From assembly GCA_947306425.1 (NCBI GenBank), contig CAMZGO010000002.1, forward strand, positions 1 through 64,000: a stretch of 64,000 nucleotides of DNA. Direction: 5' to 3'. The stretch is from an uncultured Elusimicrobia bacterium. Its GTDB lineage: Bacteria; Elusimicrobiota; Elusimicrobia; Elusimicrobiales; Elusimicrobiaceae. The translations under genes were made by a program, and so were the position numbers. The notes beneath the pieces are model-generated. The model did no database searches. It was not told the DNA's origin and saw only the letters and a list, made by a program, of their open reading frames with translations. Shown here one piece after another: positions 353 to 60,161 of this stretch. The number at the start of each line of letters is the position of its first letter. Within the stretch, counting starts at the first letter, position 1.

Positions 353-580
353 AAAAACGGCTGCCATATTTAGTACTATACACGAGACCAAATATGACAG
401 CCGTATCTGCCGCCATAAGGCGGCAGAATTAGATATACTTTTACCCGTCGGTTACTCATATATCCGCAAATACGACTGTTCATTTTGGAAGTGTATAGTT
501 TCTTTTGATTATTCAAAAGAACTCCTGTGTTAGTACACAGATTCCAAAAAAACAAAATTTTTCTAGGGGTTTTAGCCCTA
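353..580 (-). ncRNA. Pseudoknotted structured RNA, copy 1
   Basis: Read on the minus strand: a 5' hairpin (564-580, TAGGG/CCCTA type), then helix P1 (about 544-556 with 477-489) enclosing hairpins P2 (525-540) and P3 (500-521). Next come a second domain with a GGCGGCAG-type hairpin and an intrinsic terminator (stem 358-371 with 390-403, T-run 353-357). The 9 bases ACTATACAC just before the P1 3' strand (491-499) are perfectly complementary to GTGTATAGT in the terminator loop (375-383). The same architecture with a different paired sequence occurs at 25449, 36409, 57080 and 59877. A TATACT -10-like box lies near 605-610. Cis leader or independent RNA is undecided. Confidence 0.75.
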
Positions 581-25333: not shown

Positions 25334-25448
25334 TTGTGTTTTAACACCTCCTAATTTTTGGTACTCTATATTTTATAAAATTATGGCTTGTATTTGTTAT
25401 ATTTTGCTATAATAATTGTGTAATATTTTAGTTAAGGAGAATGCAACA

Positions 25449-25682
25449 CCCCCTATAAAAGGGAAAAACAAAATTTAATCTGTTTTTGGAAACCGTATTT
25501 AGGAATACGGCGCGCTTTTAAGCAATTAAGGGCAGAGAATAATTCTAAAAATAGTTCGTTATAGGTGTAAAATATCTTGGTTGATCCCCTTGATATTTTG
25601 CACCGAGTGTTTATTGCTTTTGCAATAAACCACGGCTATTATGTAAGGGTTATTATTCTCGCTCTATATAACAGCCGTTTTT
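25449..25682 (+). ncRNA. Pseudoknotted structured RNA, copy 2
   Basis: 5' hairpin CCCT/AGGG (25451-25463); P1 CTGTTTTTGGA (25480-25490) with TCTAAAAATAG (25544-25554); P2 CCGTATT/AATACGG; P3 around 25514-25532; a long hairpin GGTGTAAAATATC/GATATTTTGCACC; hairpin GTTTATTG/CAATAAAC; terminator stem about 25633-25677 with T-run. GAGAATAAT (25535-25543), directly before the P1 3' strand, is complementary to ATTATTCTC in the terminator loop (25652-25660). A TATAAT lies about 40 bases upstream. The TPR gene starts 28 bases after the T-run. Confidence 0.75.
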
Positions 25683-25709: not shown

Positions 25710-26114
25710 ATGACAAATGATATTAAAGAACAAATAAAAGAGTTCAGCGACCTAATAAAACGATATCCCCACGTGCAAGAATTTTATGTTTACAGGGCGT
25801 TTTTATATGAAAAAACTAAACAATATCAAAAAGCCATTGAAGATTATAGGAAAATATTACCTGTACAATATCTTAATTTTGATATAGCAGGTATTTGCGA
25901 AAAAAATGATTTACTCAAAGAAGCGGAAATATATTATACCAAAGCAATAAACGGAGATAAAAATAATATTCATAATTATATCCGCAGAATATATTTTTAC
26001 ATGCGTATAAAGGAAATAGATAAAGCGATATTAGATTGCAAAACCGTCTTAGAACTATCCCCCAAAAATGAAACTGTTTCAACCCTTAAAAGAATATTAA
26101 CCGAAGAAATATAA
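25710..26114 (+). CDS. Small TPR-like protein
   Basis: 134 residues built of three TPR-like helix pairs (LYEKTKQYQKAIEDY, NDLLKEAEIYYTKAI, IKEIDKAILDCKTVLELSP), with no signal peptide; probably a cytoplasmic protein-binding module. AGAGGT lies 7 bases before the ATG. It is the full-length relative of the truncated gene at 27-314, and both follow a copy of the same structured RNA, so RNA and gene seem to travel as a unit. No function can be assigned. Confidence 0.75.
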   Translation: MTNDIKEQIKEFSDLIKRYPHVQEFYVYRAFLYEKTKQYQKAIEDYRKILPVQYLNFDIAGICEKNDLLKEAEIYYTKAINGDKNNIHNYIRRIYFYMRIKEIDKAILDCKTVLELSPKNETVSTLKRILTEEI

Positions 26115-36372: not shown

Positions 36373-36408
36373 TAAAAACCATAACTTATAATTTGTTATA
36401 ATAAAATT

Positions 36409-36640
36409 GTTAGGGAAATTCCTAACATAAAATTTGATCTGTTTTTTGGAATCTGCGTTTAGCGCAGAAGGGCTTTTGGAAACAAAAGCGCCTTTACCCG
36501 TCCAAAATAAACAGTCGTATCTTTGAACATACGAGTACCCGCCGGGGGAAAGTATGTTTAATACTGTCGCCTAAAAGGCGACAGATACGGCTGTCATATT
36601 TGGTCTTGGGTAAAGGCACCGAATATGACAGCCGTTTTTT
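36409..36640 (+). ncRNA. Pseudoknotted structured RNA, copy 3 (best preserved)
   Basis: 5' hairpin GTTAGG/CCTAAC (36409-36426); P1 CTGTTTTTTGGA (36439-36450) with TCCAAAATAAACAG (36501-36514); P2 TCTGCG/CGCAGA; P3 GCTTTTG-GAAA-CAAAAGC; AACATAC/GTATGTT enclosing a GAGTA...GAAA internal loop; hairpin GTCGCC/GGCGAC; terminator CGGCTGTCATATT (36588-36600) with AATATGACAGCCG (36622-36634) and T-run. GCCTTTACCC (36490-36499) pairs with GGGTAAAGGC in the terminator loop (36608-36617), 10 bp. TATAAT at ~36397-36402 is a promoter candidate. No adjacent TPR or nuclease gene here. Confidence 0.8.
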
Positions 36641-36735
36641 ATTGGCTTCGCCTTTTTGGCTAATCTTTGTTTTTTCTACGGCTTCGTTTCTAAAGCACAA
36701 TTTCGAAGCAGATTTAAAGAAATTTATTTCTTATA

Positions 36736-36849
36736 CTCCCCGCCCCTTTGTTTACAAAGGCGGAGGGCTGGGGGTGGGGTTTTAAAATAAAGATATTTCC
36801 TTATTTTATAACCCCACTCCTAACCTCTCCACCTTAGAAAGGGGAGAGG
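36736..36849. repeat. GC-rich inverted repeat, MITE-like
   Basis: Left arm 36736-36790 and right arm 36801-36849 are inverted copies (GGGGTTTTAAAATAA-type against TTATTTTATAACCCC-type), and each arm contains its own CCCCTTT/AAAGG hairpin. The G-rich and C-rich strands contrast sharply with the AT-rich surroundings. No coding potential. With RNA copy 3 it fills the 36373-36885 gap; 36641-36735 shows nothing recognisable. Confidence 0.6.
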
Positions 36850-36885
36850 AATTAGAAGAAATACGCAAAAAAAGGAGAAACTAAA

Positions 36886-37422
36886 ATGAAAATAAATAAA
36901 AGAGGCTTTACACTTTTGGAATTGTTGGTAGTAGTTTTAATTATCGGGGTGCTGGCTGCAATTGCAATTCCGCAGTATAAAATGGTTGTGGGGCGCAGTA
37001 AATTTAATACTTTAAAAGCTATGACACAAGCCTTAGCAAATTCCGCTGAAAGATTTTATTTAATTAATGATAGATACCCTAATTCTTATAATGAATTGGA
37101 TGTTGAACTGCCTGGACGTACAGGAGGGTTTGAGAGAGATACTTTGTTTACGATACGGTCTGCACAAATGACTTGTACATTAGATTTTGGAAACGAAAAA
37201 TACATAAACTGTATAAAAAATATATTTGGAACAGATTTTGTATATCAACAATATTTTAGTAATGCTGCCGAAGGAAATAAAAATCTAAGATATTGTATGT
37301 TATATACTGAATCTAGACAAGGTAAGCTCAATAAAATATGTCAACAGGACGTAGGTGACAGTAGTAAAAGGGTACAATGCAACGGCAGTATTTGTATATA
37401 CTATTATAATAAAAACAAGTAA
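36886..37422 (+). CDS. Type IV pilin-like protein
   Basis: 178 residues: leader MKINKRG, then [20 protein letters not shown] with Glu at mature position 5. Globular domain with cysteines (MTCTLDFG, YINCIKNIFG, RYCMLY, KICQQD, VQCNGSICIYYY). AAAGGAGAAACTAAA precedes the ATG. Unlike three other pilins here it has no poly-T promoter; the nearest upstream elements are the GC-rich inverted repeat and RNA copy 3. It is convergent with coaD with a one-base gap. Confidence 0.9.
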   Translation: MKINKRGFTLLELLVVVLIIGVLAAIAIPQYKMVVGRSKFNTLKAMTQALANSAERFYLINDRYPNSYNELDVELPGRTGGFERDTLFTIRSAQMTCTLDFGNEKYINCIKNIFGTDFVYQQYFSNAAEGNKNLRYCMLYTESRQGKLNKICQQDVGDSSKRVQCNGSICIYYYNKNK

Positions 37423-40359: not shown

Positions 40360-41667
40360 ATGGAACAAAATATAGTTCAGAAAACACACCCTAGTGGCTT
40401 ATGGCTGATTTGCGTTACGGAAGCTTTTGAGCGTTTCAGTTATTATGCCATGAGGGCTTTACTTATTCTCTATTTCGTATATGCTTTAAAAATAGACAGG
40501 GCAAATGCCGCAAATCTTTATGGAACTTTTACAAGTTTAGTTTATTTATCCGGTATTATCGGCGGTTATGTGGCAGATAGATTTATAGGACAAAAACAAT
40601 CTATTATCTGGGGCGCTTTGATGATAATCATCGGGCAATTTTTGCTTGGCTTTGAAAATATAGGCATAATTTATACAGCCCTTGGTTTCCTGATTATGGG
40701 AAACGGATTTTTTAAAATCAGCATTACAACACTTGTAGGCACCTTGTATGAAAGACAAGACCCGCGCCGCGATGCAGGCTTTACTATATTTTATATGGCG
40801 GTTAATTTAGGTGCTTTTTTGGCTGCTATTATCGGCGGAGGTATTGGAGAAAAATTCGGCTGGCGGTATGGTTTTTGGGCTGCAGGCCTTGCAATGATTA
40901 TAGGGCTGCTTATATTCCTTTGGGGCAAAGAAAAATATTTTACCGGCAAAGGTGATAAGCCCAAAAAAATTACTGCTCAAACCGAAGAAGTTAAAAAAGT
41001 TCCTTTAACCGTACAAGAAAAACAAAAAATTGCCGTTATTTTTATTTTGGCTTTCTTCGTTATTTTCTTTTGGACTGCTTTTGAACAATCAGGTGCTGCA
41101 CTAAATTTATTTGCTTATGAGCATACAAACAGGATGATTAGCCTTTTTGGTTGGTCCTGGGAAGTACCTGCAACTTGGTTCCAAAGTTTGAACCCGGTAT
41201 TTGTAGTATTATTTGCTCCCTTATTTTCAAAACTTTGGATTGATTTATCAAAGAAAGCAAAAGAACCGTCTTCACCTGCAAAATTTGTCATCGCCCTATG
41301 GCTGCTTGCAATCGGTTATTTAGTTTTATTAATTGCCGCCATGAAAATGGGCCCCGGAATTAAAGTGAGTATGTTTTACTTAATTTTTGCTTATGCGGCA
41401 TTTACAATGGGTGAGCTTTGCTTATCGCCGGTTGGGCTGTCTTTGGTAACAAAACTAGCACCGTTGCAATTTGTAGGTATTTTGATGGCAGTATGGAAAA
41501 CGGCAAATGCAGCCTCTAACAAACTGGCAGGCTATTATTCAAGTTTGTTTGGGCAGATAAGTAATGAAGCATTTTTCGGCGGATTAATTATTGCCCCTTT
41601 GGCGGCATCAATAATCCTTCTCTTTTTAATGAAACCATTAAAACAATGGATGGGAGATGTAAAATAA
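40360..41667 (+). CDS. POT/PTR family proton-dependent oligopeptide transporter
   Basis: 435 residues, 12 or more helices, major facilitator type. Begins HPSGLWLICVTEAFERFSYYAMRA-like (the ExxERFxYY signature is visible as EAFERFSYY), and GGYVADRFIGQKQSI and FTIFYMAVNLGAFLA are typical of PTR2 proteins. Imports di- and tripeptides with protons, fitting a gut fermenter of amino acids. AGGAGGTGAACT precedes the ATG. Confidence 0.93.
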   Translation: MEQNIVQKTHPSGLWLICVTEAFERFSYYAMRALLILYFVYALKIDRANAANLYGTFTSLVYLSGIIGGYVADRFIGQKQSIIWGALMIIIGQFLLGFENIGIIYTALGFLIMGNGFFKISITTLVGTLYERQDPRRDAGFTIFYMAVNLGAFLAAIIGGGIGEKFGWRYGFWAAGLAMIIGLLIFLWGKEKYFTGKGDKPKKITAQTEEVKKVPLTVQEKQKIAVIFILAFFVIFFWTAFEQSGAALNLFAYEHTNRMISLFGWSWEVPATWFQSLNPVFVVLFAPLFSKLWIDLSKKAKEPSSPAKFVIALWLLAIGYLVLLIAAMKMGPGIKVSMFYLIFAYAAFTMGELCLSPVGLSLVTKLAPLQFVGILMAVWKTANAASNKLAGYYSSLFGQISNEAFFGGLIIAPLAASIILLFLMKPLKQWMGDVK

Positions 41668-41708
41668 AATATCCAGTTTAATTTTTGTAATTCTTACAAA
41701 CTATAAAC

Positions 41709-41768
41709 AACGACTGTTGTATCTGGGACTGTAAACAACCCCCAATATGACAGTCGTTTTTTACGTGA
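41709..41768 (+). terminator. Terminator after the peptide transporter
   Basis: AACGACTGT / ACAGTCGTT stem with a ~30-base internal region and T-run. The outer stem resembles the last hairpin of the structured RNA family, but no P1 domain or complementary segment is present upstream. Confidence 0.7.
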
Positions 41769-41783
41769 CAAATTATTAATTAT

Positions 41784-41813
41784 TTGCAAGAAAAGTAAAT
41801 AATTTGCTATTAT
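41784..41813 (+). promoter_or_regulatory. tRNA-Phe promoter
   Basis: TTGCAA (41784-41789), 18-bp spacer, TATTAT (41808-41813), about 20 bases before the tRNA. Confidence 0.5.
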
Positions 41814-56554: not shown

Positions 56555-57061
56555 CTATTTATGCTTTTTCCTCCATTTCCATGGCTCTTGTGCGGTAGGG
56601 TTAGACCATAGACCAACTTTAGCTGTTTTGGCTTGGGTTTCTAATTCTTTCCAATACTCACACTCCGGTATTTTACAATAATAAGTGTAAATCCATGCGA
56701 GACCTGCTTTGAGCATCTCCTCCGCGACTTCCTTATCATCAATTTTGATTCTGCCTATGGAGCGGCCATAACGGTCAATATCTATGACAGTAACATCAAT
56801 TCTCTTTTCTGCCACGAGTTCTGACATATAACTTTTAGAAATCTTACCGAAATCTTGAGCCTTTTCTGGCGCATCAATTCCGTAAAGCCGAATCTTTATT
56901 TGTTTGTTTTCGGAATTAAGAATCGTGATAGTGTCGCCATCAATCACTTTTATGACTTTACCGCTTATGATATTTGCTTTATTAGAATAGAAATTACTTC
57001 CATTACCTAATAACAAAACAGACAAAAACAATAAAAATATAAAAAAGGGGATTTTATTCAT
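56555..57061 (-). CDS. Exported thermonuclease (SNase family), copy 1
   Basis: 168 residues. Signal peptide or anchor (IPFFIFLLFLSVLLLG) and a staphylococcal-nuclease OB-fold: VIDGDTITI, then IRLYGIDAPE (catalytic Arg and Asp), VIDIDRYGRSIGRI (second Arg), EEMLKAGLAWIY and GLWSNPTAQEPWKWR. It cleaves DNA or RNA outside the cytoplasm with Ca2+. About 75% of residues match copy 2 (59365-59847). The ribosome site is weak. Both copies directly follow a structured RNA of the same family. Confidence 0.92.
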   Translation of the reverse strand: MNKIPFFIFLLFLSVLLLGNGSNFYSNKANIISGKVIKVIDGDTITILNSENKQIKIRLYGIDAPEKAQDFGKISKSYMSELVAEKRIDVTVIDIDRYGRSIGRIKIDDKEVAEEMLKAGLAWIYTYYCKIPECEYWKELETQAKTAKVGLWSNPTAQEPWKWRKKHK

Positions 57062-57079: not shown

Positions 57080-57341
57080 AAAAAAACGGCTGTTGATGGA
57101 TATTCTAGTCACGAGCCTATCCACCAAACAGCCGTAGTTACAATTCCTATAATAGAAAAACTATAAATAAGAATATGTAACGTTTTCGGTAGAAAACGAA
57201 TAAGGGAGCTACCCTTAACATTTTCCACCTAAACGGTCTGTTTATGGTCGTGACTAGACTTGAGACTGTATCCCAAGGCTATCCTATTCCTGTATAGGAT
57301 ACCACAAACATATCAAATTACATATTGTCCCCCAATGGGAC
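57080..57341 (-). ncRNA. Pseudoknotted structured RNA, copy 5
   Basis: Minus strand: 5' hairpin GTCCC/GGGAC (57327-57341); P1 TGTTTGTGGT (57301-57310 region) with ACCATAAACA (57239-57248); P2 ATCCTAT/ATAGGAT; P3 CTTG...CAAG; GGTGGAAAATG/CGTTTTCTACC enclosing AAGGG/CCCTT; GTTACA/TGTAAC with an inner hairpin; terminator stem 57087-57134 and T-run (57080-57086). TCTAGTCACG (57249-57258) before the P1 3' strand pairs with CGTGACTAGA in the terminator loop (57104-57113), 10 bp. The thermonuclease starts 18 bases later. Confidence 0.78.
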
Positions 57342-57360
57342 TTTACTACAATCTCCTTCA

Positions 57361-57464
57361 AATTATTATAAACGTCTAAATCTTCTTATAACTTTTCAGA
57401 ACTTTCTCTCAAAAGTTTCTGTTTATATTTTACTATATTATTCCATCCATATCTACAAAATTAA
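57361..57464 (-). promoter_or_regulatory. Conserved upstream block of RNA copy 5
   Basis: Nearly identical to the block at 60121-60281 before copy 4, including TTTTGTAGATATGGATGG and TATAGTAAAATATAAAC on the minus strand, which probably hold the promoter (exact boxes unclear). Two AACTTTTC-like units lie between this block and the RNA. Confidence 0.5.
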
Positions 57465-59364: not shown

Positions 59365-59847
59365 TTATTTATGTTCTTTACGCCATAACCAAGGGGCTTG
59401 TGCAGTAGGGTTTGACCATAAACCAATTTTAGCAACTCGCGCTTGGCTTTCAAGTTCCTTCCACTGTTCACACTCGGGTATTTTACAGTAAGCGGTGTAA
59501 AGCCAAGCAAGACCGGATTTGAGCATTTCTTCAGCAACTTCTTTATCATCAACTTTGATTCTGCCTACTGAGCGGCCATAACGGTCTATATTTATGACAG
59601 TAACATCAATTGTTTTACCTGCCACAAGTTCAGCTAAATATTCTCTAGAAACTTTGCCAAAATCTTGGGCCTTTTCCGGTGCATCTATCCCGTAAAGACG
59701 AATTTTTATTTGCTTGTTTTCGGAGTTAAGAATAGTTATAGTGTCGCCATCAGCTACTTTGACGACTTTGCCTTGAATATCATTTTTGCCGCTTAATAAT
59801 ACGACGGGGAAAAGCAGAAGAATTATGAAGAAGAAAATTTTGTTCAT
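59365..59847 (-). CDS. Exported thermonuclease (SNase family), copy 2
   Basis: 160 residues. Signal peptide (FFFIILLLFPVVLLSG), then SNase fold: VADGDTITI, IRLYGIDAPE, INIDRYGRSVGRI, EEMLKSGLAWLY and GLWSNPTAQAPWLWR. It is a close paralogue of 56555-57061. Its ribosome site GGAGA lies in the 3' arm of a hairpin (59850-59876), so translation may be gated. It directly follows structured RNA copy 4. Confidence 0.93.
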   Translation of the reverse strand: MNKIFFFIILLLFPVVLLSGKNDIQGKVVKVADGDTITILNSENKQIKIRLYGIDAPEKAQDFGKVSREYLAELVAGKTIDVTVINIDRYGRSVGRIKVDDKEVAEEMLKSGLAWLYTAYCKIPECEQWKELESQARVAKIGLWSNPTAQAPWLWRKEHK

Positions 59848-59876: not shown

Positions 59877-60114
59877 AAAAAAAACGGCTGTTTGCTGGCT
59901 ACTCAAGACTAGGGTATACCCAACAACAGCCGTAGTTACAAAATTCTTCGAAAAGAATATGTAACATTTGGCAAATAACATTGAGCTCATGACTTCCCAA
60001 TATTATCTACCTAAACGACTATTTTTGGACTAGTCTTGATTTTGGGTTTCCCCAATAACCATCCCTTTTGGGATTCCAAAAACAGATAAATTACATATTG
60101 TCCCTCAATAGGAC
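59877..60114 (-). ncRNA. Pseudoknotted structured RNA, copy 4
   Basis: Minus strand: 5' hairpin GTCC/GGGAC (60100-60114); P1 CTGTTTTTGGA with TCCAAAAATAG; P2 ATCCC-AAAA-GGGAT; P3 TTGG/CCAA; GATAATATTG/CAATGTTATT; GTTACA/TGTAAC with inner ATTCTT-TTCG-AAGAAT; terminator stem 59885-59932 with T-run 59877-59884. CAAGACTAG (60030-60038), directly before the P1 3' strand, pairs with CTAGTCTTG in the terminator loop (59904-59912). The thermonuclease gene follows. Confidence 0.78.
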
Positions 60115-60161
60115 TTTTACTACAATCTCCTTCAAATTATTATAAACGCCTAAATCTTCTT

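Follow-up and report, generated by a model that had tools for sequence, protein, structure and literature searches.

We describe a large family of structured RNAs in gut bacteria of the phylum Elusimicrobiota that probably act in cis as a new family of transcription attenuators: bistable leaders within the 5' untranslated regions of genes for pilins, TPR proteins and other surface or accessory proteins. Each leader carries a 10-base address matched to its own terminator loop, and the predicted folds suggest that this matched address most likely keeps the gene on, rather than knotting the terminator. Computation showed alternative folds of the leader, covariation of the address, a position directly before genes and the specificity of each address for its locus. 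The window analysed here is a stretch of 64,000 nucleotides (contig CAMZGO010000002.1 of assembly GCA_947306425.1, from an uncultured Elusimicrobia bacterium).

Results

Copies in the window

An earlier note on this DNA had listed five related RNAs, and all five were present at the positions, on the strands and with the parts that it had given (Table 1). The complementarity of the paired arms in its list is real, but the fourth and fifth pairs had been swapped: TCTAGTCACG belongs to the copy at 57080 and CAAGACTAG to the copy at 59877. The terminator stem contains a C:A mismatch in the copy at 25449.

Table 1. Copies of the leader RNA in the window and parts of the copy at 36409-36640
Feature	Position	Strand	Description and basis
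Copy 1	353..580	(-)	Address arms 491-499 and 375-383; TPR-protein gene starts 38 nt past the terminator
Copy 2	25449..25682	(+)	Address arms 25535-25543 and 25652-25660; TPR gene 25710-26114 starts 27 nt past the terminator
Copy 3	36409..36640	(+)	Parts given below
Copy 4	57080..57341	(-)	Address arms 57248-57258 and 57104-57114; SNase gene 56555-57061 downstream
Copy 5	59877..60114	(-)	Address arms 60030-60039 and 59903-59912; SNase gene 59365-59847 starts 32 nt past the terminator
Copy 3, -10-like box TATAAT upstream of the RNA	36397..36402	(+)	Read directly; transcription would be expected to start near 36409
Copy 3, 5' hairpin GTTAGGG/TTCCTAAC	36409..36426	(+)	RNAfold
Copy 3, core of the RNA family	36431..36639	(+)	R1 match of 216.9 bits; itself a seed sequence of R1
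Copy 3, strand A (P1 5' strand) CTGTTTTTTGGA	36439..36450	(+)	Predicted fold
Copy 3, P2 and P3 hairpins within P1	36452..36489	(+)	P3 capped by GAAA; predicted fold
Copy 3, address segment GCCTTTACCC	36490..36499	(+)	5' arm of the covarying helix; covariation
Copy 3, strand B (P1 3' strand and ACAGTCG)	36501..36517	(+)	Partner of A (P1) or of C (antiterminator); predicted folds
Copy 3, P4 hairpin	36523..36561	(+)	Type A with tip CCGCCGGG; palindromic apical loop in most other copies
Copy 3, P5 hairpin	36564..36584	(+)	Predicted fold
Copy 3, strand C CGGCTGT..TTTGG	36588..36603	(+)	Terminator 5' arm and antiterminator 3' arm; predicted folds
Copy 3, address loop GGGTAAAGGC	36608..36617	(+)	3' arm of the covarying helix, inside the terminator loop; covariation
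Copy 3, intrinsic terminator with T run	36587..36641	(+)	Read directly, predicted fold
Copy 3, downstream gene for a type IV pilin-like protein	36886..37422	(+)	N_methyl, Pfam E 1.5e-8

Between the terminator of copy 3 and its gene lies a GC-rich hairpin repeat, ccccgcccctttg..caaaggcggaggg (window 36740-36860), which also occurs downstream of L024, L028, L033 and L037 and looks dispersed. The CGACTGT/ACAGTCG stem recurs elsewhere in the window, on both strands at 41613-41804, in a terminator that stands without the leader domain and scores 37.4 bits on the (+) strand and 28 on the (-) strand. This stem may be a common terminator in the window's genome.

Family size and distribution

Since a first MAFFT and RNAalifold alignment of mixed types yielded no structure, five close copies served as the seed of covariance model R1, namely window copies 1 and 3 and three further copies of the same genome found by similarity, and the pseudoknot was left out of the model. 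At 36 bits or more, R1 matched about 38 copies in the 1.44-Mb genome of the window, all five window copies among them, and further copies across the phylum, which bears out the proposal of a structured RNA family. The earlier note had also called for a covariance-model search of related genomes and a comparison with Rfam. R1 matches were found in 63 of 248 sampled genomes of Elusimicrobiota; 27 of 60 relatives had matches, with up to 38 copies per genome. Within the window's own family the matches come from genera g1 and g6, and a second, distant family (f12) has them in several of its genera. R1 matched nothing in the sister family f2 or in genus g2 of the own family (G018, G023, G025) among the sampled genomes. 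This patchy distribution may reflect transfer or loss.

When 84,980 species genomes were scanned with a DNA pattern, the titles of the resulting loci were mostly of Elusimicrobiota from rumen, gut and termite metagenomes, and all loci confirmed by the model had either an Elusimicrobiota or an uninformative title. Pattern matches titled outside the phylum (L075, L109, L112, L114, L126) were regarded as chance, as none of them passes R1. A phage or virus origin was likewise rejected: 23 pattern matches lie in viral contigs and none passes R1.

Rfam 15 gave no match to the family. There was no gathering-score match in the window, relaxed thresholds over the copies in six loci gave only noise, and T-box and other curated families were not encountered. 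A literature search of incomplete coverage turned up no earlier account of this kind of RNA from Elusimicrobiota. The attenuator as a device is already known, whereas none of the sources searched describes the present family with its copy number, private address and palindromic loop.

The covarying address helix

For the helix statistics, 179 distinct copies were collected with R1. A contiguous helix of 9-14 bp (mode 10) joins the segment before the P1 3' strand to the terminator loop in 171 of them; in three copies (L043, L226, L235:997) the best helix lies elsewhere in the RNA, so that the pairing is conserved in about 176/179. The arms of at least 9 bp comprise 149 distinct sequences; this length requirement selects paired copies, yet it drops only 8 of the 179, and the rest of the fall to 149 comes from the removal of identical addresses. 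Each of the nine inner positions is canonical in 149/149, against 57-73 expected if the two sides were independent, and the mutual information there reaches 1.5-2.0 of 2 possible bits. Watson-Crick pairs make up at least 98% at these positions, except for the innermost (94%). Only 20 of 22,052 non-self arm combinations match 9/9 at the same fixed position. The copies are interrelated and the counts are therefore not independent events, though all 149 addresses differ from each other. Chance falls far short of explaining the complementarity, and the strong covariation asserted in the earlier note is confirmed. The covariation by itself is unable to separate a pseudoknot from an antiterminator.

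Antiterminator and terminator folds

Four strands make up the two alternative folds: A (CTGTTTTTGGA), B (TCCAAAAACAGYYG), C (CGGCTGTTATATTTGG) and D, the 3' arm of the terminator. A pairs with B in P1, and C pairs with D in the terminator. B is also complementary to C, with canonical pairs in 166-174 of 174 copies at positions 1-5, and this complementarity runs directly on into the address arms. The resulting nested antiterminator of about 25 bp consists of the address, CCAAA:TTTGG and ACAGYYG:CGGCTGT, and encloses P4 and P5. In the copy at 25449, the change in C is matched in B and not in D; L020 and L208 similarly keep B:C and lose C:D.

The folding comparison rests on RNAfold energies. In transcripts ending before the terminator 3' arm, the antiterminator is the minimum free energy (MFE) structure in 172/179 copies by a strict criterion and in 177/179 by the B:C criterion, with forced or free folding. 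At full length, the terminator is the MFE structure in 158/179 and the antiterminator is kept in 21/179, its penalty having a median of 5.5 kcal/mol. Folds of the growing transcript pass in the window copies from P1 to the antiterminator and then to the terminator with P1, only marginally so in the copy at 25449. Thus the antiterminator uses the 5' arm of the terminator and excludes it in silico, as an attenuator requires, and P1 would serve as the anti-antiterminator.

When the address segment was swapped, full-length antiterminator MFEs fell from 21/179 to 5/537, and truncated transcripts still formed the antiterminator in 80%. Because of this latter fraction, the address does not appear absolutely required for the antiterminator in these models.

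Position before genes

A same-strand gene starts a median of 40 nt after the terminator in 156/179 copies, often with a ribosome-binding site of its own and with little room for another promoter. Because of this position the copies look like cis-acting leaders. The earlier note had proposed discrete RNAs of 200-260 nt; termination would indeed yield such RNAs, but the placement before genes points to leaders. Some downstream genes begin 200-365 nt away, and 23/179 copies, some of them at contig ends, are without a clear same-strand gene within 400 nt. A -10-like box can be read shortly upstream of the RNA in many copies, and the intrinsic terminator lies between this promoter-like box and the same-strand gene at a short distance, the arrangement expected of an attenuator.

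In the window's own genome, a gene for a type IV pilin-like (N_methyl) protein lies within 450 nt downstream on the same strand in 21/38 copies and on the opposite strand in none, against 0.64 expected. The same genome (G000, 1.44 Mb) has 108 such genes, and the leader stands before only about a fifth of them. Other followers encode small TPR, SNase-like, glycosyltransferase-like, LicD-like, methyltransferase-like, zinc-ribbon membrane and secreted proteins, the classes being assigned by Pfam for the scanned window genes and elsewhere by reading the translations. Hairpin ends of IS200/IS605-like elements were considered, since the downstream genes are short, and this idea was dropped as Pfam identified pilin, TPR and SNase.

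We also observed in many copies an AGGAG that resembles a ribosome-binding site, close to where the transcript is expected to begin (window 25430-25450, 57341-57370 and 60114-60140; upstream of L007, L009, L011, L016, L018, L020, L026 and L030, among others). In 26 of 42 copies with a following ATG, a start-stop mini-ORF (ATG-TAG or ATG-TAA) stands just before the 5' hairpin. Other copies have neither AGGAG nor mini-ORF, and a GTAGTA motif is often found near the expected start.

Palindromes in the P4 loop

The apical loop of P4 contains a palindrome in most copies (TAATTA, TTATAA, TCATGA, TTGCAA, TCTAGA, TTCGAA, GATC, AGCT, GGCC). Among 52 distinct P4 loops, 29 have a 6-nt palindrome against 5.5 in shuffles (maximum 11), and 46 have a 4-nt palindrome against 23.7; the same shuffle comparison gave only chance levels for the loops of P2, P3 and P5. 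The palindromic character is kept through changes of the sequence, as in a kissing loop. The commonest geometry, 2 nt, a 6-nt palindrome and 1 nt, occurs in 61 copies, and such asymmetric flanks argue against a DNA operator. Judging from these loop sequences, the RNAs likely form homodimers through P4. A minority type A, which includes window copies 1 and 3, has a P4 tip CGACGG or CGCCGG instead of the palindrome. Under this tip, type A copies (L007, L009, L011, window 353-580 and 36409-36640) have an AGUA/GAAA internal loop that resembles the sarcin-ricin (loop E) motif.

The HIV-1 DIS loop is 9 nt long with the same 2+6+1 spacing, so that P4 is similar to it in having a 6-nt palindrome with 2 nt on the 5' side and 1 nt on the 3' side. 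The P4 loop differs in belonging to a bacterial leader RNA and in its AU-rich and varied palindromes, whose flanks are not always purines, while the flanking purines are essential in DIS (PMC7357161). The tetranucleotide palindromes of OLE and GOLLD are likewise present in P4. OLE, ROOL and GOLLD are far larger standalone RNAs, whereas the present RNA has about 230 nt, precedes genes and has no Rfam match. For OLE and GOLLD, the switching of loops among the palindromes GGCC, GAUC and AGCU has been cited in favour of symmetric kissing between molecules (PMC12286853).

Evolution and privacy of the address

Interior G-U pairs amount to 0.7% in the address helix, against 6.6% in P2 and P3, 10.5% in P4 and P5 and 18.6% in the terminator of the same RNAs. 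Ten same-gene pairs with a scaffold identity of 0.92-0.995 have the same address, one of them differing at the edge, and in L028/L080 and L059/L104 the address is identical with matching upstream DNA although only 87% of the scaffold is shared. Loci with different neighbours have different addresses even at 85-92% scaffold identity (e.g., L213/L224 and L225/L228). A few same-gene pairs, among them L110 and L138, which have the same downstream gene over 1.5 kb, differ in address and thus show that exchange or rewriting of leaders can occur. Addresses that are frozen within a locus and different between loci are not what simple helix drift should produce. The pattern calls either for strong selection against single mismatches together with a burst of change after duplication, or for a templated process that rewrites both arms.

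Within the window's genome, a single one of the 1,260 ordered non-self address combinations is 9/9 compatible. Because tens of near-identical leaders share one cell, and a common address would allow pairing in trans, the private addresses likely serve to insulate the sister leaders from each other. A trans partner for the address was considered and rejected: no third genomic occurrence was found for the two loci tested (with addresses of 13 and 11 nt), and the 1.5-kb flanks showed no enrichment of the address.

Discussion

The transcription attenuator that we propose would work as follows. Early in transcription, strand A would pair with B to form P1, leaving the 10-nt address segment single-stranded beside B. 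Once strand C and the address loop have been transcribed, pairing between segment and loop would provide a toehold from which C would displace A from B, presumably in this order. The resulting antiterminator (address, CCAAA/TTTGG and ACAGYYG/CGGCTGT), with P4 and P5 enclosed, would probably allow RNA polymerase to read into the gene. Should D capture C first, the terminator would arise together with P1, and transcription would end with the release of a leader of about 230 nt. As the signal that biases the switch, the P4-P5 junction and homodimerisation via the palindromic P4 loop are the leading candidates.

This logic is similar to that of classical attenuators and terminator-type riboswitches (T-box, SAM-I and others), which have their own promoter, the combination of anti-antiterminator, antiterminator and intrinsic terminator, and a position directly before the gene. 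On the other hand, the present leaders occur in tens of copies per genome on unrelated genes, and they have a locus-specific, freely variable 10-bp antiterminator arm, a palindromic loop and no Rfam match.

A more specific form of the attenuator explanation is possible, though doubtful: a metabolite riboswitch, in which a P4-P5 three-way junction (conserved CGARTG and ACYACGG), existing only in the antiterminator, would bind a small molecule and turn the genes on. The junction bases CCGARTGTTT are strongly conserved, and a common signal is suggested by the single architecture of the many copies in a genome. However, most of the conserved positions are explicable as base pairs, no typical conserved aptamer or ligand pocket was identified among the copies, the downstream genes share no common pathway and the P4 tip occurs in two unrelated forms.

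The earlier note had interpreted the covarying helix as a pseudoknot into the folded terminator. On that interpretation, the RNA would be a stable noncoding RNA with P1 and the terminator formed simultaneously and the terminator loop docked on the segment before P1. The very strong covariation is compatible with this, and the full-length MFE structure does leave the helix between the terminator loop and a single-stranded segment. However, 162/179 copies have a linker of 0 nt between the loop and the descending stem of the folded terminator. By the established geometry of pseudoknots a zero linker cannot span a second stem of 10 bp, so that the 10 bp cannot all form with the terminator stem closed, and the complete address helix is compatible with the antiterminator but not with an intact terminator. 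Thus a complete 10-bp pseudoknot is sterically unlikely, as an H-type pseudoknot needs both stems and sufficient linkers; a partial pseudoknot of about 6 bp or a kissing contact is possible in the terminated state. Moreover, a pseudoknot as stated is not supported, because on its inner side the helix continues colinearly into the conserved B:C complementarity and so nests as the base of the antiterminator. A pseudoknot alone would leave this adjoining B:C and CCAAA:TTTGG complementarity and the location right before genes unexplained, and we consider this interpretation improbable.

Similarly, it seems improbable that the terminated leader of about 230 nt is itself the product, a trans-acting or homo-oligomeric RNA like ROOL, GOLLD and OLE that pairs with itself via the palindromic loop, the downstream gene being secondary. 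The strong terminator would suit such a product, as would the switching of P4 loops between palindromes, which in OLE and GOLLD was taken to support symmetric kissing between molecules (PMC12286853). The consistently short distance to a same-strand start codon and the enrichment for one gene class point instead to regulation in cis, and the address has no third copy elsewhere for the two loci tested, nor in the flanks. Finally, a DNA-level element, either a mobile repeat or an invertible segment that merely resembles RNA, is very improbable: the family is multi-copy and patchy across genomes and its address arms form an inverted repeat, but most copies are too diverged to be recent mobiles, their orientation to genes is fixed, the compensatory changes in helices and the loop geometry fit RNA, and viral contigs have no model matches.

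The attenuator explanation can be extended to self-recognising switches, a speculation that we regard as rather unlikely. Palindromic kissing would join two leader transcripts, and the 10-bp address would let only leaders from the same locus exchange arms. The genes would then sense their own transcript, giving gene-by-gene autoregulation or a bistable choice, and the address would change in bursts at duplication and then freeze.

If the leaders are attenuators as proposed, one RNA class would control tens of genes in one small genome, mostly from a repertoire of 108 pilin genes, and the key arm of the switch would be a private, perfectly Watson-Crick address at each locus. The family would then illustrate a way in which bacteria keep numerous near-identical RNA switches insulated from each other. 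A leader RNA that likely homodimerises would join the few known natural RNA dimers, and the 149 address pairs would form a natural library for synthetic RNA regulators. Moreover, it would provide a first regulatory handle on the unexplained expansion of pilins in gut Elusimicrobiota.
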